Source of the DNA: Glycomyces salinus
GTDB taxonomy: Bacteria > Actinomycetota > Actinomycetes > Mycobacteriales > Micromonosporaceae
Reading direction: 5' to 3'
NCBI RefSeq assembly: GCF_016428645.1
Contig: NZ_JAELXW010000072.1
Coordinates: 1 to 46,476, forward strand
DNA: 46,476 nt
The first letter of the stretch is position 1. Each line of letters begins with the position of its first letter. The notes beneath the pieces are model-generated. The model was not told the origin of the DNA and did not search any database. It saw only the letters and a program-made list of their open reading frames with translations. The position numbers and the translations under genes are program-made. Below are positions 6,634 through 16,907 of this stretch, piece after piece.

Positions 6634-9600
6634 CTAATTCGACTCGAAGTCGAACCGGCACGGCACCGGCGAGCCCATCTGCGCGTGCGCGTCCTCGACC
6701 CGCTGCCGGTACCGGTCGGCCGCTACCGCGTCGCCTTCGGCGCGGGCCACCGATGCCAGGACCCACAGCGCCCACGCCTCTCCGGCGCGATGCCCGACCG
6801 GGCGCAGGAGCTCCTCCGCCTGCTCGGCATGCCCGCGGGCCCGGCCCGTGTCGCCGAGGCGCAGCGACCCCTCGGCGAGGACGTCCAGCGCCAGACCCTC
6901 GCTGACGCGGTAGCCGCAGTCCCGGGCCATGCCGAGCGCCGATTCCGCGTCCGCCAGCCCGGCCTCGAACCTCCCCAGCCCGATCAGGCCGACGCCGCGT
7001 TCGATGAGGGCACTGATCTCGGTGCCCCTGAGGTCGTCCCGCACCGAGCGCAGGGCCCGGTCGACCGCGTCCACCGCCTCCGAGTGGCGTCCGAGCAGGT
7101 TGAGCGAGAAGGCCATGGCCACCAGGCCGTCGGCCTCGTGCCGCCGGTCCCCGCTCGCCTTCCCGACCCGCGCGACCGCCTCGGCGTACGGCAGGGCGTC
7201 CTGGTGCTTGCCGAGACCCGCGTAGAGCTCCGCGAGGCTGCCCGCCTCGACCGGAGTGAACGTGCCCTTCCCGGAACCGGTCTCGATCCGCATCGCCTGG
7301 TCCATGCAGTGCTCGGCCGTCTCCATGTCGCCCAGCTCGACGGAGGCCGACAGGATGCCGCACAGGTGCGACTTCCGCAGCCGCGCGTCGCCGATCCGGT
7401 CGGCGATGCCGAGCCCTTCCCGGCGCAGGCGCACCTTCCGGCGCAGGTCTCCCAGCGAGCCGTAGACCGAGCTGAGCGCGCCGAGATTGACGCTCTGGCC
7501 GCGCAGCCTGCCCTGCTGGCGGTTGATCTCGAGCGCCGCCTTCCCGTGCTCCAGCGCGGCCTGGAGCCGTCCGATCAGCCAGCACGCGAGCGTCATGTTG
7601 TGGTGGGCCGACGCCTGCCCCGAGGTCCAGCCGATGCGGCGGGAGAGCTCGGCGGCGCGCTCGGCGTGGTCGACCACCTTCATGAATTCGCGGGCCTTGG
7701 CGTACGCGGTCGAGACGCAGAGTTCGGCCACGGCCTCCCCGCACTCGCTGCGATCCTGGCGGGCGCCTTCGAGGGCCGCGTCGGCCAGTGCCAGGAAGTC
7801 GACGCTGTCCATCGTCGCCCACGCGTGGGCGCGGAGGGCGTCCGCCAGCCGCCACGACACCGAGCCCCGGCCGTGCTCGGCCGCGAACCGGGCCAGCTCG
7901 ATGAGCGGTCCGCGCTCGTCGTCCAGCCACCGCGCGGCGGCATCAGGGGCGTCGAAGCGGGGCGGGCCGTCGGCCGGTTCGCGCTGCGAGAGACGGGCGT
8001 TGGCGGGGTACAGGCGCTCGCCGGCCGCCTCGGCGGTCTCGAGGTACCAGGTGAAGAGGCGCTCCAGGATCTCCTCCTGCGGCGGGTCGGTGACGTCGGT
8101 GAGGCCGTTCGCGTAGTCGCGCAGCAGATCGTGGAGTGAGAGCCGACCGCTGCCGTCGCGGACGGCCATATTGGCGTTCGCCAGCCGCGCCGCGGCCCGT
8201 TCGGCCGTCTCCGCGTCGCTGCCCGTGACGGCGGCGAGCGCCTCGACCGGGAGGGAGACGACCGGTGCGCGTCCGAGCATGCGGAACAGGCGCCGGGCGT
8301 CGTCGGACTGTGCCACGTAGGAGCGGTCGAAGGTGGCCCTGACGGCGGCCTCCGGGCTGGCGCCGATCTCCAGGGCCGCCAGGGCGTCTCCGGTCGAGAG
8401 CCGGTCGGTGTACTCGCTGAGCCCCTGCGGGCGGTCGGTGAGGTTCGCGGCCGCGATCCGCAGCGCGAGCGGCAGGTGGCCGCACCTGCGGGCGAGATCG
8501 ACGATCTCGGGGTCCCGCGCCGAACGGGGCAGCCGCAGCAGGGACTTGAGCAATGAGACCGCTTCGTCGGTGGTGAGCGGCGCGAGCGTGAGGTGGACGC
8601 CCCCGTGGCGCGCGAGCAGGTCGCCCAGGCGGTTGCGGCTGGTGACGATCACCAGCGACCCGGGACCGCTGGGCAGCAGCGGCACCACCTGCTCGGCCGA
8701 TTTGGCGTTGTCGAGCAGGACGAGCATCCGCCGGTTCGCCGTCTCGGTGCGCAGCCGCGCGGCGGCGTGGTCCGCGTCCGCGGGGATCTGGTCGTCGGTC
8801 AGGCCGAGCGAACGCAGCATCGCCGCGAGCGCCTCGATCGGCCGCAGCGCGGGCAGTCCCGAGTATCCGCGCAGGTCCGAGAAGATCTGCCCGTCCGGGA
8901 ACTCGTCGGCGATGCGGCGCGCCCAGTGGATCGCCGAGGAGGTCTTGCCGACCCCCGCCATGCCGGAGATCACGATGATCGGCGAGGGCGGGATGCCCTC
9001 GGCCTCGTCGCCGAGCCGCGCGGCCTCGAACGCGCGCAGCTCGCTTGCGCGGCCGGTGAACCCGCCGACGTCCGGGGGCAGCTCGCGCGGGGTCGTCGCG
9101 GCGGGGGACCCGAGCTCGATCCGCGACTCCGGCGGCGCGGTCCAGTCGCCCTCGATGCTGCCGGTCGACACCGAGTGGAGCCGCTCGTCGCGATGCAGGA
9201 CGGCGTCGTGGACGCGCTGGAGCAGCGGTCCGGGATCGATGCCCAACTCCTCGCGCAGTACCCGGCGGTTCTCCCGGAGCACCTGGAGGGCCTCGGCCTG
9301 GCGTCCGGACCGGTACAGCGCCACCGCCCGCAGGGCGGTGAGCCGCTCGCGGAACGGGTGCTCGCGCGCCAGGACCTCGAGCTCGCCGATCACCGAGGCG
9401 TGCGAGCCCAGGTCGAGGCGTATCTCGAGCGACTCCTGGTGGACCAGCGACCGCCGTTCGCTCAGCCTCTGGGCCTCGGCGGCGATCATCCCGGTCGACG
9501 GCACGTCGGTGTAGGGCTCGCCGCGCCAGAGCCCCAGGGCGCTCGCGTATCGTTCGGCCGCCCGCTCGAGTCGGCCCTTGCGGCGGTCCTCGCCGGCGGC

Positions 9601-9936
9601 GGCCGCCAGCTCCTCGAACGCCTTCGCGTCGAAGTCGTCGGCCGACACCTGGATGCGGTATCCGGTCGACTCGCGGACGATGCGGTGTTCGCTCCCGAGG
9701 GACCGCCGCACCCGGTACAGGTAGACCTGCACGGTGTTCCTGGCGTTGCGCGGTGGCGACCCGGCCCACATCTCTTCGGCGAGCGCTTCGACGGTCATCA
9801 CCTTGCCCGAACCCGCCAGCAGGGTCGCGAGGAGGCGACGCTGCAACGGGGCGCGGCCGAGCAGCGGTTCACCGCCGAGAGTGACCGACATTGGACCGAG
9901 GACTCTGATCTGAAGCTCGTCTGACATGGTCTGCAC
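6634..9936 (-). CDS. AfsR/SARP-family transcriptional regulator with NB-ARC and TPR domains
   Basis: 1100 residues. Domains in order: OmpR-type winged helix (10-97), bacterial transcriptional activation domain (about 105-250), an NB-ARC/STAND ATPase with Walker A GMAGVGKTSS (325-334) and Walker B LVLLDN (405-410), then a long TPR array from about 720 to the end. This is the architecture of Streptomyces AfsR, a pleiotropic activator of secondary metabolism whose ATPase is tuned by Ser/Thr kinases. I take the GTG at 9936 as start; an ATG at 9927 is equally possible because neither has a strong ribosome site. A pair of TGTAAG direct repeats lies about 115 bases upstream. Confidence 0.93.
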   Translation of the reverse strand: MQTMSDELQIRVLGPMSVTLGGEPLLGRAPLQRRLLATLLAGSGKVMTVEALAEEMWAGSPPRNARNTVQVYLYRVRRSLGSEHRIVRESTGYRIQVSADDFDAKAFEELAAAAGEDRRKGRLERAAERYASALGLWRGEPYTDVPSTGMIAAEAQRLSERRSLVHQESLEIRLDLGSHASVIGELEVLAREHPFRERLTALRAVALYRSGRQAEALQVLRENRRVLREELGIDPGPLLQRVHDAVLHRDERLHSVSTGSIEGDWTAPPESRIELGSPAATTPRELPPDVGGFTGRASELRAFEAARLGDEAEGIPPSPIIVISGMAGVGKTSSAIHWARRIADEFPDGQIFSDLRGYSGLPALRPIEALAAMLRSLGLTDDQIPADADHAAARLRTETANRRMLVLLDNAKSAEQVVPLLPSGPGSLVIVTSRNRLGDLLARHGGVHLTLAPLTTDEAVSLLKSLLRLPRSARDPEIVDLARRCGHLPLALRIAAANLTDRPQGLSEYTDRLSTGDALAALEIGASPEAAVRATFDRSYVAQSDDARRLFRMLGRAPVVSLPVEALAAVTGSDAETAERAAARLANANMAVRDGSGRLSLHDLLRDYANGLTDVTDPPQEEILERLFTWYLETAEAAGERLYPANARLSQREPADGPPRFDAPDAAARWLDDERGPLIELARFAAEHGRGSVSWRLADALRAHAWATMDSVDFLALADAALEGARQDRSECGEAVAELCVSTAYAKAREFMKVVDHAERAAELSRRIGWTSGQASAHHNMTLACWLIGRLQAALEHGKAALEINRQQGRLRGQSVNLGALSSVYGSLGDLRRKVRLRREGLGIADRIGDARLRKSHLCGILSASVELGDMETAEHCMDQAMRIETGSGKGTFTPVEAGSLAELYAGLGKHQDALPYAEAVARVGKASGDRRHEADGLVAMAFSLNLLGRHSEAVDAVDRALRSVRDDLRGTEISALIERGVGLIGLGRFEAGLADAESALGMARDCGYRVSEGLALDVLAEGSLRLGDTGRARGHAEQAEELLRPVGHRAGEAWALWVLASVARAEGDAVAADRYRQRVEDAHAQMGSPVPCRFDFESN

Positions 9937-10051
9937 GTGTCACCGGCCTTGCGAGGAGCTACGGGGCCTGTCCAGAATAGTACGGTCGGGCCCTTCGGCC
10001 CAGTTATCCGATTTTCGCACCGCAGTACCCGGTAACCGCGCGCGGGCTGAG

Positions 10052-10068
10052 TGTAAGGGAACTGTAAG
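10052..10068 (+). promoter_or_regulatory. Candidate SARP-type direct-repeat operator
   Basis: TGTAAG occurs at 10052-10057 and again at 10063-10068, exactly 11 bp apart, in the divergent region between the AfsR-like gene and a small LuxR-type gene. SARP/OmpR-fold activators characteristically bind short direct repeats with 11-bp spacing overlapping the -35 region. The repeats lie 26-42 bases before the plus-strand start at 10094. The assignment to the adjacent regulator is inference. Confidence 0.4.
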
Positions 10069-10093
10069 CGGCACTGGGCATCCTGGAGAGACA

Positions 10094-10483
10094 ATGAGCC
10101 TTCGGCCCGCCGTCGAGCCGATCGCGAATCAGGACGTACCGCCGGCCATCCCACCGCCGCGGCGTCCGGCACGCGGCGAGCCGCTTGTGGAGAAAGGAGA
10201 ACCATCCGTGCCCGGCAGTCGATACCCGGATCTCGATCCCCTCGACCACGTGACTCCGCGCCAACGCCAGATCCTCATACATTTGGTGCACGGCAAGACC
10301 AGGGAAGCCATTGCGAGAAACCTCTACCTCTCGCGCAGCACCGTCAACCGCGACATCCGAGACATGACCCGCTGCCTCGGGGCCTCGTCCCCGGAAGCGC
10401 TGGGAGCACTGGCGTATCGCGCGGGGCTGATCGTCGAGGAGCACTTCGGGGAAGCCGTCGAGGCGGTCCCGGTGCGAATCTGA
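10094..10483 (+). CDS. Small LuxR/GerE-type HTH regulator without a receiver domain
   Basis: 129 residues from the ATG at 10094 (GGAGAG site). A shorter product of 91 residues could start at the GTG at 10208, which has an excellent AAAGGAG nine bases upstream. The only recognisable domain is the C-terminal HTH (TPRQRQILIHLVHGKTREAIARNLYLSRSTVNRDIRDMTRCLGASSPEALGALAYRAGLI); the upstream residues are Pro-rich. With no phosphoacceptor it would act as a stand-alone DNA-binding protein. It converges on the peptide/ABC/M50 cassette across a strong terminator and is a candidate regulator of either that cassette or the adjacent AfsR-like gene. Confidence 0.75.
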   Translation: MSLRPAVEPIANQDVPPAIPPPRRPARGEPLVEKGEPSVPGSRYPDLDPLDHVTPRQRQILIHLVHGKTREAIARNLYLSRSTVNRDIRDMTRCLGASSPEALGALAYRAGLIVEEHFGEAVEAVPVRI

Positions 10484-10533: not shown

Positions 10534-10567
10534 AGCCCTGCCGGGTCCGTCCGGACCCGGCAGGGCT
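10534..10567. terminator. Strong bidirectional terminator
   Basis: A perfect 15-bp inverted repeat (AGCCCTGCCGGGTCC at 10534-10548 and its complement at 10553-10567) with a 4-base loop GTCC lies between two convergent genes, the small LuxR-type regulator (stop 10483) and the M50-like protease (stop 10574). It marks the downstream boundary of the minus-strand cassette. Confidence 0.85.
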
Positions 10568-10573
10568 TCGTCG

Positions 10574-11095
10574 CTAGGGGTGTTGTCGGTGCCCGACTGC
10601 GCCGCGGAGGCTGCGCCAGAGCGCCTGCCCGTCGCCGAACACGGGCAGGAGGAACGCCAGGTGGAGCAGATACCACCAGGCCAGAGAGCGGTCGAGGCCG
10701 GTCAGCCACAGGCCCGCGCCGACGGCCGCGCAGGAGAGCGGGCCCGCCAGCGCGACCAGGGCGTTCTCGCCGCGGGTGAGCGTGCCCTCGGGGACGAGCG
10801 AGGTTCGCAGGGCGCCGGTCTCGATCGTGACTGCGGTGATGCCCGGGAGCGCCTTGAGGACCGCGGCGTGGGCCGACTCGTGCAGCGCGAACGAGCAGAT
10901 CAGTCCGAGCACGGCCGCCTTGCCGCACAGGAGGGCCAGCAGGACGAATCCGGAATCGCCCGAGTGCGCCCACCACGCCAGCGCGGCGAGCGTGGGCAGT
11001 GCGAGGAACGCCGGCAGCGGCCAGACCGAGGCGGCCACGGTCCAGGCGACCCGGGCCACCCGGAGTTCATCCCGCCGGTACGTCGTCCGCTTCAC
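10574..11095 (-). CDS. M50/site-2-protease-like intramembrane metalloprotease
   Basis: 173 residues, almost entirely hydrophobic, with about four membrane helices. HESAH at 72-76 inside a helix is a HExxH zinc site. LAGPLSCA at about 116-123 matches the GP-containing helix of M50 enzymes, and FGDGQ (153-157) fits the second-helix Asp-Gly motif that supplies the third ligand. S2P-type proteases cleave substrates within or next to the membrane. The GTG start at 11095 overlaps the preceding small gene by 29 bases, indicating translational coupling. It is the last gene of the peptide/ABC cassette, so the obvious candidate substrate is the 88-residue membrane peptide. It resembles YydH-type or daptide MpaP-type maturation proteases in position; relatedness is not shown. 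Confidence 0.8.
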   Translation of the reverse strand: MKRTTYRRDELRVARVAWTVAASVWPLPAFLALPTLAALAWWAHSGDSGFVLLALLCGKAAVLGLICSFALHESAHAAVLKALPGITAVTIETGALRTSLVPEGTLTRGENALVALAGPLSCAAVGAGLWLTGLDRSLAWWYLLHLAFLLPVFGDGQALWRSLRGAVGHRQHP

Positions 11096-11414
11096 GCGCC
11101 CGCATCTCCTCGAGCAGCTGCTCGCGCCGCCGCTTCAACCGCCGGAACATGACCTGGATCAGGGCCATCTGAACGACCAGCACCAGGAAGATGATGAGGA
11201 TGGGCACCGGATTGCCCAGCCCCGCGGTGACGTCCACGACCCCGTCGGGGCGTTCGACGGCGTCGAACTCCAGGGCCCCGAACAGGCCGGTCTTGTGGAC
11301 GTCGCCCTCGTTGTCACCCGTGAACATCAGCACCAGCATGGCGAAGACCGTTATCGCGAGTGTGAGGAGTCCCGCTCCTACCACGGAGTTGATGACCAGC
11401 AGCGCCTTTTTCAT
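11067..11414 (-). CDS. Small two-helix membrane protein (unknown; possible immunity or export accessory)
   Basis: 115 residues. Helix one spans about 7-32 (VINSVVGAGLLTLAITVFAMLVLMF). An acidic outer loop of about 35 residues (DNEGDVHKTGLFGALEFDAVERPDG) follows. Helix two is at about 69-90, then a strongly charged C-terminal tail (RRLKRRREQLLEEMRAREADD). I know no family. The ATG at 11414 has a perfect AAGGAGG seven bases upstream, so it is certainly translated. The gene lies between the ABC permease and the protease and overlaps both. By analogy with bacteriocin loci a small membrane protein here could give self-protection or complete the transporter; that is inference. Confidence 0.8.
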   Translation of the reverse strand: MKKALLVINSVVGAGLLTLAITVFAMLVLMFTGDNEGDVHKTGLFGALEFDAVERPDGVVDVTAGLGNPVPILIIFLVLVVQMALIQVMFRRLKRRREQLLEEMRAREADDVPAG

Positions 11415-12828
11415 TGCGCCTCCTTGATTCGTCGAGGTGGATACCTTGGATCGCGTATGCGGCGAACAATGCGGTGGCCGCGGTGAAGACCGCGCCCAGC
11501 GTCCACGGGGAGAGGTTGAGCACTCCGAGGCCGACGACGACCAGGCCCGCGACGATCGCGACGGCGGACAGGCCGAGGAACACCGAGAGCGGGTTGTCCT
11601 TCTCGGCCGGGAAGATCACGCCGATGCCGGTGGTCATGACCGCGGCCGCGACGGCGGCGGCGATCGCCAGCCACGAGTCCCCGACCCAGTCGAGGCGGAC
11701 GACCGCGGCCGCGAGCGTGAACGGGACCGCGAAGACGCCGATGAGGACGCACTGGGCGCGCAGCATCCGGGCGAACACCCGCCAGGGCGGCACCCGCGTG
11801 CCGGGAATCGACCGCAGCACCGCGGTGGCGGTGAACTGGTACAGGCCGCCGACGGTGAGCAGTGAGAGCGCCCAGATCGGATTGGTGCCCCCGTTCAGCA
11901 GCAGGTACACGAACAGTGCGACGGCGAGGACGGCGGCCGTGGCGGTGTGGGAGCTGCGGATCTGGCACCAGTCGTAGGGGGTAAGGAACCTGCGGGCCCA
12001 CGAGCCGGCGCGGATGTTCAGGTACCGCGACTGCCGGACGTGCCGGTTGGGGGAGAGCGCAACCGTGAGCAGGGCGAGGACGGCCGCCGCGGCCAGGGCG
12101 GCGGCGATCACCCCGAGCGCGCCGTAGCGGTCCGCGCTGTCCGCGATCGCGGTGGCCCAAGTCCCGGCCGGCTCCTCGTTCAGGTAGGCGTCGGTGATGT
12201 CGACGATCATCGAGTTGGAGACGGAGGCGTACACCGCTACGAGCACGAACAGGACCAGGATGTTGAGGATGCCGGAGACGCGTTCGAGGCGGACGACCGT
12301 CCACAGTCGGGTGAGCAGCTGGTGGACCACCGACAGCGCCAAGTAGGCGAGGATCCCCGGCAGCACCACCGAGACGCAGATCGGGATGAGCGCGTCCGGC
12401 CCCAGCAGCAGGATCGAGTTGGCGACCAGGGCGAACACTCCGGCCACGGTGACGACGCCGGTCATGGCGGCCTCGTAGAGGAGGAACGCGAGCGAGCGCT
12501 CCCGGTTGGTCACCGGCATCTGGAAGCTCAGTTCGAGCATCCCGTCGGCGTTGACGAACAGCACCTTCACGATCAGGAACGCGACCTGGACCCACAGGAG
12601 CACCGAGACCGTCGTGGTGTCGAACAGCAGGTCCCACACTTCGCGCCGGTCGGTGAGCTCCTTGAGGAAGAAGTAGGCGGCGACGGTGAGGACGCCGACG
12701 AAGATCACGGTGCCGACGACCGCGAAGACGCGCACCGGAGTGGATTTCAGGGCCCCGACGCTGAGGACGCGGCGGCGGAAGAACACCAGCAGCATCCTCG
12801 CGAGGACGATCGATTGTCGCAGGCGCAT
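11314..12828 (-). CDS. ABC transporter permease (exporter type)
   Basis: 504 residues with about twelve hydrophobic segments and no nucleotide-binding domain. It starts two bases after the stop of the ATPase gene, so the two form a transporter. The core resembles large bacitracin- or peptide-export permeases: a helical pair at about 35-55 and 80-105, a long middle cytoplasmic stretch after 260, and a second helical half. The frame continues about 34 codons past the start of the next gene (to 11314), giving a hydrophilic tail (ESRRRNEKGAAGHQLRGRSG...) that overlaps it by 101 bases. This tail could be real or could reflect a single-base error near 11414; a one-base shift would end the protein at about 11411. 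Confidence 0.82.
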   Translation of the reverse strand: MRLRQSIVLARMLLVFFRRRVLSVGALKSTPVRVFAVVGTVIFVGVLTVAAYFFLKELTDRREVWDLLFDTTTVSVLLWVQVAFLIVKVLFVNADGMLELSFQMPVTNRERSLAFLLYEAAMTGVVTVAGVFALVANSILLLGPDALIPICVSVVLPGILAYLALSVVHQLLTRLWTVVRLERVSGILNILVLFVLVAVYASVSNSMIVDITDAYLNEEPAGTWATAIADSADRYGALGVIAAALAAAAVLALLTVALSPNRHVRQSRYLNIRAGSWARRFLTPYDWCQIRSSHTATAAVLAVALFVYLLLNGGTNPIWALSLLTVGGLYQFTATAVLRSIPGTRVPPWRVFARMLRAQCVLIGVFAVPFTLAAAVVRLDWVGDSWLAIAAAVAAAVMTTGIGVIFPAEKDNPLSVFLGLSAVAIVAGLVVVGLGVLNLSPWTLGAVFTAATALFAAYAIQGIHLDESRRRNEKGAAGHQLRGRSGTPHTRDNGLRHAGADVHG

Positions 12829-12830
12829 GA

Positions 12831-13547
12831 CTAGCGCTCGTCCGACTCGAGGTAGTCGAACACCAGCTCGGAGAGCGAGCCGTGCTCATCGACGAGGTCG
12901 CCGGCGGGCGCGTCGTAGATGACCTGCCCGAAGTCCAGCAGGACGATCCGGTCGGCCAGCCGCTCCAGGACGGCGAAGTCGTGTGTGCACAGCAGGAGGG
13001 AGCGCCCCTCCTCGCGGAGGCGCGCGAACTCGGCCTCCGCCAGTCGCAGCGCCTCCAGGTCGATGCCGTTCAGCGTCTCGTCGATCACGGTCAGCGGACG
13101 CCGCATGACCAGGGCCGAGACCAGCTGGGTCTTCTTGCGCATGCCGTGCGAGTAGTCCTCGATGAGGTGGTCGTAGCGCTCGGCCATCGCGAACCGCCGG
13201 AACAGCTCCTCGGCCTCGGCGTGGTCCGCGTCGACCCCGTATAGCGAGGCCATCATCGCTATGTACTCGCGCGCGGTGAGGAATTCGGGAAGGTAGTCGT
13301 TGCTGGAGAGGTACATGCCCTGGGCCCGCGCGCGCGGGTGGTCGTGCCGGTGCCCGTCGATCCGCACGTTGCCGGCCTGCAGCCGCAGCAGGTCGAAGAC
13401 GTTCTTGATCAGAGTCGATTTGCCGGAGCCGTTCGGTCCGATGAGGCCGACAATGGTCCCTTGGGGCACTTCGAACGACACATCCGCTACGGCCTTCACC
13501 AGGCTGTCGTACGAATAGGACAGGTCCTCAATTTCCAGGAGTGCCAT
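12831..13547 (-). CDS. ABC transporter ATP-binding protein
   Basis: 238 residues. Walker A GPNGSGKST (37-45), a Q-loop region near YLSSNDYLPEFL, Walker B PLTVIDETLNGID with Glu158, and the switch His in LLLCTHDF are all present. The signature loop is unusual: EDYSHGMRKK (YSHGM in place of LSGGQ), a variant common in exporters of the antibiotic/peptide type. The start at 13547 has GGAAGG six bases upstream. It energises the permease encoded two bases downstream. The gene lies 123 bases after the 88-residue membrane peptide and most likely belongs to its transcript. Confidence 0.92.
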   Translation of the reverse strand: MALLEIEDLSYSYDSLVKAVADVSFEVPQGTIVGLIGPNGSGKSTLIKNVFDLLRLQAGNVRIDGHRHDHPRARAQGMYLSSNDYLPEFLTAREYIAMMASLYGVDADHAEAEELFRRFAMAERYDHLIEDYSHGMRKKTQLVSALVMRRPLTVIDETLNGIDLEALRLAEAEFARLREEGRSLLLCTHDFAVLERLADRIVLLDFGQVIYDAPAGDLVDEHGSLSELVFDYLESDER

Positions 13548-13670
13548 GGTTTCCTTCCCGCCTGCCGCAATTGCAATGCGACGAGTCACGGCGGCCCAGG
13601 AATTGAGGCGTCCTGGGTCACCGTGATCGTCACTTTTATAGTGGGTCTGATTGAGCCGACCCGTAAGAGG

Positions 13671-13937
13671 CTAGACGCACTCGACGTTGATCGAGACGCC
13701 GGACCAGCTCCAGTTCCAGCTGCCGGTGAACGTCCGGTCCTTGTAGACGACGCACCAGATCGACAGACCGGCGAGAATCGTGACACCAAGGGCGAGGATC
13801 ACCGCGAGCAGCACCACGTACCAGGCGTCATACCGGACGAGGGCGCTGTCGAGCTTCTCCTTCATGGACTCGACGGCCCGAGCGGTACCGTTCTGAGCCA
13901 TGACGACCGGCTTGGCCGCGAGAGTAGCGATAGACAT
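13671..13937 (-). CDS. 88-residue single-pass membrane peptide with Trp/Cys-rich tail; candidate precursor of an exported peptide
   Basis: I recognise no family. The N-terminal 38 residues are polar and mildly basic (ESMKEKLDSALVRYD), a long hydrophobic helix spans about 39-65, and a 23-residue tail follows (KDRTFTGSWNWSWSGVSINV plus ECV). The tail has Trp at 74, 76 and 78 and ends near Cys87; the other Cys (62) lies at the helix end. The ATG at 13937 has an optimal AAAGGAGG six bases upstream, among the strongest in the window, which suggests high expression. The context is an HTH regulator just upstream and an ABC transporter, a small membrane protein and an M50-like protease downstream. 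This suggests a pheromone, bacteriocin or other exported peptide. No modification enzyme is adjacent. Confidence 0.75.
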   Translation of the reverse strand: MSIATLAAKPVVMAQNGTARAVESMKEKLDSALVRYDAWYVVLLAVILALGVTILAGLSIWCVVYKDRTFTGSWNWSWSGVSINVECV

Positions 13938-13966
13938 GTTCTTCCTCCTTTCGGATGTGGGATACG

Positions 13967-13976
13967 CCATTAATGG
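13967..13976. promoter_or_regulatory. Palindrome CCATTAATGG upstream of the membrane peptide
   Basis: A perfect 10-bp palindrome lies 30 bases before the peptide start, in the only AT-rich patch between the LuxR-type gene (stop 13995) and the peptide gene. It could be the operator for the adjacent HTH regulator or overlap the peptide promoter. Confidence 0.45.
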
Positions 13977-13994
13977 TGCCGCTTCTGAAAGGAC

Positions 13995-14426
13995 TTAGAA
14001 AGTGTCGGAAACGCCACTCTTTGAAAGCAGCGAGCGCCGTTGGTGAGAAGCGATCACCGCCGCCTCCGCGCGCGAGGATATACCCAGCTTCGTGAAGACG
14101 CTGGCAATGTGCTTGCGGACCGTCCGCTCGGATATGAACAGTGCCGAAGCGATCTCCGCGTTCGACAGGCAGTCTCCGAGCGCGATCATTATCTCGCGTT
14201 CTCGGAAAGTTAAAGTGGACGTATCTGCTGCGTGAGCCCACGGAGGGGCCTCGCAGGTGTGCTGATCGGTGCACGTCGGTGGGTACTCGGTGCTCCGCGC
14301 GGCGGATTCCGTCGCGCGACCGTCGTCGAGGCGTTGCAATGTTCTGGCTCCCAAGCGCCGATGACCGTGTCCCGGCGGCGCCACGGCGTGGCGGCCGGCT
14401 CGATTCACGATCGCAGCCTCCGACAT
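13995..14426 (-). CDS. LuxR/GerE-type HTH regulator without a receiver domain
   Basis: 143 residues. The C-terminal 65 form a canonical LuxR HTH (LTFREREIMIALGDCLSNAEIASALFISERTVRKHIASVFTKLGISSRAEAAVIA). The first 70 residues are low-complexity and contain two Cys (CTDQHTC) but no receiver or ligand-binding domain. The annotated start has only a weak ribosome site, so the true N-terminus may be shorter. It is immediately upstream of the membrane-peptide gene on the same strand (57 bases) and is the likely local activator or autoregulator of the cassette. A second HTH-only LuxR protein faces the cassette at its other end. Confidence 0.8.
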   Translation of the reverse strand: MSEAAIVNRAGRHAVAPPGHGHRRLGARTLQRLDDGRATESAARSTEYPPTCTDQHTCEAPPWAHAADTSTLTFREREIMIALGDCLSNAEIASALFISERTVRKHIASVFTKLGISSRAEAAVIASHQRRSLLSKSGVSDTF

Positions 14427-15053: not shown

Positions 15054-16907
15054 TCAGCACTCGGCGAGCGGCCCGGTCGAGTCGGGGTCGTCCGGGTCGA
15101 GCTCGAACCAGACGAAGGGGAGGTATCCGACCTGGCCGTGATGGTCGAACTCGACGACGAGGTTCGAGGCGGCCTTGCCCGGGTGGGAGTCCCAGGAGAC
15201 GCCGCCCTCCTCGCCTCGCGGGTCGATCCTCCGGTCGGTCTCCGTGTAGCAGTAGAGGTAGTACTGGTCGCCCGAATAGGCGTCCCCGATGGACTCGTTC
15301 CGGTCGGGGTCGGCGCCGACATCGACGCGGGCGCCGCCGCTCCCGCAGTGCTCCAGCGGCGAGGGGCATTCGAAGCGGACCTTGCCGAGGACCGGCGTGG
15401 TCGAGACCCACTCGGTCAGCGGCGCCTGGTCCGAGCCCTCGACTTCGAGCACGAAGACGTACGGGACTCCCGCGCGGAGTCCGTCGACGGTGAGCTCGTT
15501 GCAGTCGCCCGCCGCCTCCACATCGGTCTCCTTGACCGTCGCCGTGCACCGCAGCGTGTCCGGTTCGGCGCTGGTGTAGACGGTGAACGACGAGTAGGAC
15601 GGGTCGACCAGGCTGATCTCGATCTCCTCCGCGGCGGCGTCGGTCGGCCGTCCGGTCTCGGTGCCGTGGCCGTCGTCGGGCGCGGCCGACGACTGGGAGG
15701 CGGGCTCGTCCCGGTCGACGCCGGAGGCGACCGCCCAGACGATGCCGACGCCGCCGAGGACCATGACGACGGTGACCACCAGCGCCGTCAGCACCGGGTA
15801 GAGCCCGGGGCCGACCCGCCGGGTGCGGAACCGGGACCGGTGCGCCGGACCGGGCGGGGCCGGCGGCGTGAACGGCGCGGCCCGGTCCGCCGGGGTCGAC
15901 TCGAACGGCGGACCAGAGGCCGCGCGGTCCGGTGCGGGCGGAGCGGCCGCACCGTTCTCGGAGGGGAGGACGACGGTTCGCTCGGCCGCCTCCTTGGCTT
16001 CCATGCGGTCGCTGACGTCGGCCATCTGGAGGGACTCGGCGAAGGCGCGGCAGGACTCGGGGCGCCGGGCCGGGTCGCGGTCGAGCGAGCGGACCAGGAG
16101 CCGCTCGAGCCATTCGGGGACGTCCTCGCGCGGCAGCGCTGGTGGCGGCACGGCGGAGGTGACGCGCCGCCGGTGCGCGTCGGGGTCGGTGCCGCCCTCG
16201 GGGTCGGCGAACGGGGCGTGCCCGGCCAGCAGGTGCCACATCGACGAGGCCAGGCTGTAGAGGTCGCTGGCCGGAGACTGGGCCCGGCGCAGCAGCGCCT
16301 CGGGGGAGGCGTGGAGCGGCGTGAGCATGTCGATCGCCTGGGTGGCCGACAGCGCCTCGGGGGCGCGGGCGATCCCGAAGTCGGCCAGCGCCGGGCCGTA
16401 CTGGCCGCGCAGGATGTTCTGCGGCTTGACGTCCCGGTGGATGATCCCGGCCTCGTGCGCGGCCTGAAGCGCCTGCCCGATCTTGACGCCGACCTCGACG
16501 ACCTGTTCGACGCCCAGTGGCCCCCGGTCCTTCAGGATCGACGAGTAGGAGCCGCCCTCGCAGTACTCCATGACGATGTAGGGGCGTCCGTCCCCGGTCG
16601 AGCCGGTGTCGATGATCGAGACGATGTGGGGGTGTCCCGACACCAGGACGGTCGTCTCCAGCTCCTTCGCCATCGAGTCGGTGGTGTTCATCTCGCCGTC
16701 GACCAGCACCTTGACGGCGACGACCCGGTCGAGGCGTTCCTGGACGGCGCGGTAGACCACGGCGGTCGACCCGCCTGCGACCGCCGTGAGGTCGCGGTAG
16801 CCGGGGATCGTCGGAACGGTAGCGGGAGGCACGAAGCGTCTTTCTGTCGGGACACCGGGATCGGAACGGGGGTACCAGGATGCCCCGCGGTTCGCCGCCC
16901 CCGCCAC
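15054..16907 (-). CDS. Membrane Ser/Thr protein kinase (PknB/AfsK-like) with extracellular domain
   Basis: 617 residues from a GTG at 16907 with GGAGG ten bases upstream. The kinase domain (about 36-295) has catalytic Lys66 (VAVKV), HRDVKPQN (157-164), DFG (176-178) and SPE. The Gly loop is irregular (AVAGGSTAVVY). A Pro-rich juxtamembrane stretch carrying Thr residues precedes one membrane helix (about 367-394). The outside part has a Ser/Asp-rich linker, an FN3-like domain (SFTVYTSAEP...; GLRAGVPYVFVLEVEG) and a Cys-containing terminal domain. It is encoded directly behind an AfsR-like regulator. In Streptomyces AfsK phosphorylates AfsR, so a kinase-regulator relay is likely by context. Confidence 0.92.
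   Translation of the reverse strand: MAGAANRGASWYPRSDPGVPTERRFVPPATVPTIPGYRDLTAVAGGSTAVVYRAVQERLDRVVAVKVLVDGEMNTTDSMAKELETTVLVSGHPHIVSIIDTGSTGDGRPYIVMEYCEGGSYSSILKDRGPLGVEQVVEVGVKIGQALQAAHEAGIIHRDVKPQNILRGQYGPALADFGIARAPEALSATQAIDMLTPLHASPEALLRRAQSPASDLYSLASSMWHLLAGHAPFADPEGGTDPDAHRRRVTSAVPPPALPREDVPEWLERLLVRSLDRDPARRPESCRAFAESLQMADVSDRMEAKEAAERTVVLPSENGAAAPPAPDRAASGPPFESTPADRAAPFTPPAPPGPAHRSRFRTRRVGPGLYPVLTALVVTVVMVLGGVGIVWAVASGVDRDEPASQSSAAPDDGHGTETGRPTDAAAEEIEISLVDPSYSSFTVYTSAEPDTLRCTATVKETDVEAAGDCNELTVDGLRAGVPYVFVLEVEGSDQAPLTEWVSTTPVLGKVRFECPSPLEHCGSGGARVDVGADPDRNESIGDAYSGDQYYLYCYTETDRRIDPRGEEGGVSWDSHPGKAASNLVVEFDHHGQVGYLPFVWFELDPDDPDSTGPLAEC

Follow-up and report, generated by a model that had tools for sequence, protein, structure and literature searches.

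Gene content of the locus

The window analysed here is a stretch of 46,476 nucleotides of Glycomyces salinus DNA (contig NZ_JAELXW010000072.1). It harbours a group of six genes, all on the minus strand and spanning positions 10574-14426; their positions agree with the preliminary description. The first encodes an HTH-only LuxR-family regulator (13995-14426; GerE in Pfam, E 9.7e-17), as had been proposed. It is followed by genes for an 88-residue peptide (tmcA, 13671-13937), an ABC-transporter ATPase (tmcB, 12831-13547; ABC_tran in Pfam, E 3e-23), a 504-residue ABC permease (tmcC, 11314-12828), a 115-residue two-helix protein (tmcE, 11067-11414) and a 173-residue M50-like protein, a putative site-2-type intramembrane zinc protease (tmcP, 10574-11095). 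The names anticipate the assignment argued below. The ATG of tmcA is immediately preceded by AAAGGAGGAAGAAC. For tmcB, the conserved ATG at 13547, which is common to G. algeriensis and gives a protein of 238 residues, was favoured over a GTG at 13589.

The ATPase and permease genes are separated by 2 nt, whereas the permease gene overlaps tmcE by 101 nt and tmcE overlaps tmcP by 29 nt. The coupling suggested earlier from overlaps and short gaps is therefore real. The peptide, the permease, the 115-residue protein and the M50-like protein did not match any Pfam or NCBIfam family significantly. A Pfam scan of ten window proteins, encoded between 6634 and 16907, showed no radical-SAM protein, dehydrogenase or aminotransferase, as noted before.

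Several neighbouring genes were also observed. At 6634-10483, a SARP-type regulator gene (BTAD, NB-ARC and TPR domains) on the minus strand and a second HTH-only LuxR gene on the plus strand are arranged head to head, a pair that adjoins the cassette in only one of the 13 other cassettes described below, that of G. algeriensis. A Ser/Thr protein kinase gene (Pkinase, E 8e-37) is located at 15054-16907, upstream of the regulator gene. In the genome of the window, the chaplin domain (PF03777) gave four matches (C79:125025-125651).

The gene set recurs across genomes and plasmids

Searches with the permease gave six matches in 200 genomes of the family and five in 394 genomes of the class, both including the own genome, and seven in 392 Streptomyces genomes. 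Together these represent 17 distinct genomes, 14 of them with a near full-length match, and in all of these 14 actinobacterial genomes tmcA, tmcB, tmcC, tmcE and tmcP were found together. The remaining three matches were short: two come from decayed loci (G674 and G529) and one is spurious (G131). A tmcA profile detected the peptide in six of the 392 Streptomyces genomes, all six with complete cassettes, and in the eight other cassette genomes. A TmcP profile likewise matched in 14 of 14 cassette genomes.

We also searched a collection of 72,556 plasmid records, in which the permease and the peptide each matched two, three records in all. All five core genes are present on plasmid pHOB2 of Staphylococcus epidermidis and also on a plasmid from Roseburia, which brings the complete cassettes to 16. 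The Roseburia cassette is spread out, with A-E-P followed by B-C and a transposase gene in between. The third record, a Peribacillus muralis plasmid, harbours A, B and C, with an unannotated tmcA at L023:7965-8174, but neither E nor P was detectable in the 16 kb fetched; this locus is either a three-gene variant or a decayed cluster. A protein search gave 11 peptides including that of the window, among them peptides of Isoptericola, Micromonospora and Caldalkalibacillus.

Because the genes recur together across two phyla, the locus is not a chance arrangement. The preliminary description had named separation of the peptide gene from the transporter and protease as the outcome that would overturn its reading; instead, the three are conserved together.

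The precursor peptide has the features of a TMcin

TMcins are a class of antibacterial peptides published in 2025 (PMC12328743), the biosynthesis of which is treated in a preprint (PMC13252029). The core described in these two sources consists of the same five genes, tmcA, B, C, E and P. The published precursor has a transmembrane helix, a 45-residue leader and a Cys25-Cys50 disulfide, and acts together with an S2P-clan protease (TmcP), an escort (TmcE) and an exporter (TmcBC); the product is described as forming beta-barrel pores in target membranes. For TMcin-G1905 of S. aureus, leader cleavage, the disulfide, secretion, the need for the escort and pore formation were shown there, and the homologues reported from Bacillota and Actinomycetota fall into three gene arrangements (PMC12328743; PMC13252029).

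In an alignment of 24 precursor rows, W39, W61, C62, F70, G80 and C87 are invariant. Homologues share the tail but differ in the sequence and length of the N-terminal leader, the opposite of the variable tails expected earlier. An AlphaFold2 model of the precursor shows a helix at residues 38-65 and strands at 70-77 and 80-87, that is, a helix plus a beta-hairpin, with moderate confidence (mean pLDDT 69.5, pTM 0.42; block pLDDT 75-84 over residues 41-88). A helix and two strands are likewise described for TMcin in PMC12328743. The window peptide has one predicted transmembrane helix flanked by two conserved Trp (W39 and W61) and two conserved Cys (C62 and C87). The spacing of 25 between these cysteines equals that of C25-C50 in TMcin-G1905 (PMC13252029), which we counted in favour of a TMcin identity.

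By analogy with TMcin-G1905, the expected product comprises residues 38-88 (51 residues, encoded at 13674-13826, minus strand), with a Cys62-Cys87 disulfide and a predicted average mass of 5658.6 Da with that one disulfide. The predicted leader, residues 1-37 (13827-13937, minus strand), was delimited by setting Cys62 and Cys87 against Cys25 and Cys50 of the mature TMcin-G1905 (PMC13252029). We would therefore expect neither the fragment of residues 66-88 nor the unmodified peptide that had been put forward. The place of Lys32 of TMcin-G1905, for which a salt bridge is reported, is taken by Thr69 in the window peptide, the two peptides having been compared by residue numbering and features.

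Protease, transporter and escort genes

TmcP carries an HESAH motif and a distal FGDG. The HExxH motif together with the distal Asp and Pro is invariant in 22 of 22 aligned proteases, so that the suggested weak point, loss of the zinc site in homologues, did not materialise. The first Foldseek match of the TmcP model was S2P 3b4r (best hit E 9e-3), which is also the sole PDB hit given for TmcP in PMC13252029. The window protein alone had no Pfam match at 0.1, and DUF3267 was matched by four of the 22 TmcP relatives at 0.01. The protein is of the S2P/DUF3267 type found in TMcin clusters, with HExxH and the distal Asp and Pro. A crude hydropathy scan gave two hydrophobic segments compared to four helices reported for TmcP, and ten for TmcC compared to 12 reported (PMC13252029). 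The earlier proposal that the operon serves to mature and export a peptide, and encodes an intramembrane protease, holds.

The tmcBC genes encode an ABC transporter, and both pHOB2 and each of the 14 actinobacterial cassettes have counterparts. Residues D170, E171 and H203 of TmcB (numbered from the GTG start) were kept in 17 of 17 sequences, and TmcC has at least 86 relatives besides itself. The 115-residue protein, with two hydrophobic segments in the crude scan, corresponds to the TmcE escort. Its gene directly precedes tmcP in 16 of 16 complete cassettes, residues T18, F31, F45 and G65 are kept in 18 of 18 sequences, and it is homologous to the pHOB2 protein encoded between tmcC and tmcP (36% identity over 99 residues, E 3e-12).

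We found no disulfide enzyme gene in the window cluster. For the DsbA-like gene tmcD, one family was searched, Thioredoxin_4 (PF13462), with no match on the window's contig and two genes elsewhere in the genome. Since tmcD is reported for staphylococcal clusters only and is absent from non-staphylococcal ones (PMC13252029), its absence here is not defining. In the cassette of Roseburia sp. 831b, the gene next to tmcP (L022:10122-11630) encodes a membrane protein with a thioredoxin domain, possibly the disulfide enzyme there; its match to DsbD is weak and below the cut-off.

A candidate regulator gene and two predicted RNA hairpins

In 11 of the 14 actinobacterial cassettes, the window included, the core genes are preceded on their own strand by a LuxR-type HTH gene, a candidate cluster regulator. 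Six Streptomyces proteins match that of the window at 46-63% over 64-124 residues. Three of the 11 are weaker matches, two of them at loci within the genus and the third elsewhere in the family, and no such gene was found upstream in the cassettes L042, L043 and L044. In G. algeriensis (L001:6352-7125) and at L033:9196-9960, the LuxR-type gene and tmcA form one continuous open frame with no stop in between.

The intercistronic region between tmcA and tmcB (13548-13670, minus strand) contains a predicted stem-loop, with a 126-nt fold (13550-13675) of -55.0 kcal/mol and a z of -4.97. Such a stem-loop was predicted in all 15 loci evaluated (the Roseburia locus lying outside these), with z between -0.7 and -4.5 from 100 shuffles each and 14 of 15 at z <= -1.5; the start chosen in L044 is uncertain. 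A second, GC-rich hairpin lies after tmcP between convergent genes (10534-10567, minus strand), and its 15-bp stem is part of a fold of 61 nt with -44.2 kcal/mol (z -5.35). The locus had been described as closed by a strong terminator: the hairpin is strong, but it is followed by no T-run and is not among the reports of the terminator scan.

Stand-alone tmcE genes

Three Streptomyces genomes (G674, G529 and G677) contain an open tmcE of 103-106 aa (L038:6071-6388, L046:7452-7769 and L055:7667-7975), a count to be read with a sampling that favours tmcE. We found no tmcA and no intact tmcC or tmcP in these genomes, and no tmcB in the stretch fetched. The dN/dS suggests relaxed constraint. Self-immunity to TMcins was left open by the 2026 preprint (PMC13252029), and the three genes give a weak hint in this direction. 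It is conceivable, although we consider it rather unlikely, that TmcE is also the immunity protein, blocking oligomerisation by pairing with the beta-hairpin of the peptide, and that non-producers keep tmcE to survive TMcin-making neighbours.

Proposed mechanism and alternatives

The gene content, conservation, spacing, active-site residues and predicted folds observed at the locus make us highly confident that it is a TMcin biosynthetic gene cluster which works in the following manner. For G. salinus, the biochemistry as a whole is inferred, as are the topology, the precise site of cleavage and what the regulator and the tmcA-tmcB hairpin do. The TmcA precursor would reside in the producer membrane with its N-terminus inside, and a disulfide between the Cys at the helix's outer end and the one close to the C-terminus would pin the beta-hairpin to the helix. 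TmcE would hold the peptide and present it to TmcP, which would remove the leader near Asp37-Ala38. TmcBC would then extract the helix-plus-hairpin peptide of about 51 residues from the membrane and release it. Its targets would be competing Gram-positive bacteria, in whose membranes it would assemble into beta-barrel pores with the helices as a surrounding belt. Expression is probably under the control of the LuxR-type protein encoded upstream, and the stem-loop that follows tmcA probably makes the transcript of the precursor more abundant than that of the machinery.

The same machinery could also deliver a secreted signalling peptide instead of a killing pore, with the LuxR-type protein as response regulator. 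The frequent presence of that gene upstream of actinobacterial cassettes would fit, but the regulator is HTH-only with no evident peptide sensor, and the peptide retains what marks a pore-forming TMcin, namely the Trp, the Cys and the hairpin. Moreover, a relative is encoded on a small mobilizable plasmid (pHOB2), like the S. aureus bacteriocin (PMC12328743). We regard a signal as improbable. Marginally less probable still is a non-functional or silent relic in the window genome. Cassettes do decay, as the three Streptomyces loci show, but here none of the five core genes is interrupted and the active-site residues are conserved, and the core proteins of G. algeriensis are 81-87% identical in the same order.

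Epipeptide (Yyd) and daptide (Mpa) loci combine a small precursor, an M50-type protease and an ABC transporter, with a radical-SAM epimerase beside the precursor in epipeptide loci (YydFGHIJ) and aminotransferase and dehydrogenase genes beside it in daptide loci. These modifying enzymes are absent from the ten scanned window proteins. A RiPP locus of this kind that has lost its modifying enzyme, a reading suggested by the parts in common, can practically be dismissed: the precursors of all 16 complete cassettes belong to a single family, in which two cysteines accompany a full transmembrane helix, and the cassettes fit the TMcin gene set, so that nothing suggests a lost enzyme.

Comparison with known TMcin clusters

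A TMcin cluster at this locus means that the system, earlier called uncharacterised, belongs to a class already published (PMC12328743; PMC13252029). The locus is real and conserved; what is added is the host, the regulator gene and a few leads. The main text of PMC12328743, to which this statement is limited, does not mention Glycomyces, Streptomyces or LuxR. An apparently unknown locus is now placed in a membrane-made, pore-forming bacteriocin class, and as Glycomyces, Streptomyces and other actinobacteria carry intact clusters, TMcin work would become possible outside pathogens; the experimental work described in PMC12328743 and PMC13252029 was on S. aureus only. Three leads emerge: the LuxR-type control gene, the stand-alone tmcE as a possible immunity gene, and the TMcin cluster in a skin S. 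epidermidis.

This last cluster, on plasmid pHOB2 of strain 14.1.R1 (NZ_CP018844.1, 1-3964), is complete and includes a thioredoxin-fold gene that resembles tmcD (CPDC motif). Strain 14.1.R1 was reported to be exceptionally active against Propionibacterium acnes, for which the authors proposed a type VII system, the agent not being identified in their accounts (PMC5347227; PMC4770681). The narrow target range reported there argues against a broad TMcin as the agent.

The TMcin-G1905 cluster on S. aureus plasmid pCT545 shares tmcA, B, C, E and P with the window (PMC12328743; PMC13252029). Both encode a precursor that has one helix flanked by two Trp and two Cys at a distance of 25 residues, and an S2P-type protease with HExxH and a distal Asp. 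The order is A-B-C-E-P in the window and B-C-E-P-A in TMcin-G1905, and a LuxR-type gene takes the place of a bicistronic HTH operon. Unlike TMcin-G1905, the window has no tmcD oxidoreductase gene on its contig as far as the one family searched, and its host is actinobacterial. Plasmid pHOB2 has the five core genes of the window, but its order B-C-E-P-A with thioredoxin-fold and HTH genes nearby matches the published staphylococcal layout; its TmcP, TmcE and TmcB are 24-36% identical to those of the window, and its cysteines are 24 apart. The cluster of Glycomyces algeriensis DSM 44727 (L001) is a near-orthologue with the same order and regulator (identity 84% for tmcA, 87% for tmcB, 81% for tmcC, 81% for tmcE and 83% for tmcP), which differs from the window in that its regulator and tmcA share one open frame.
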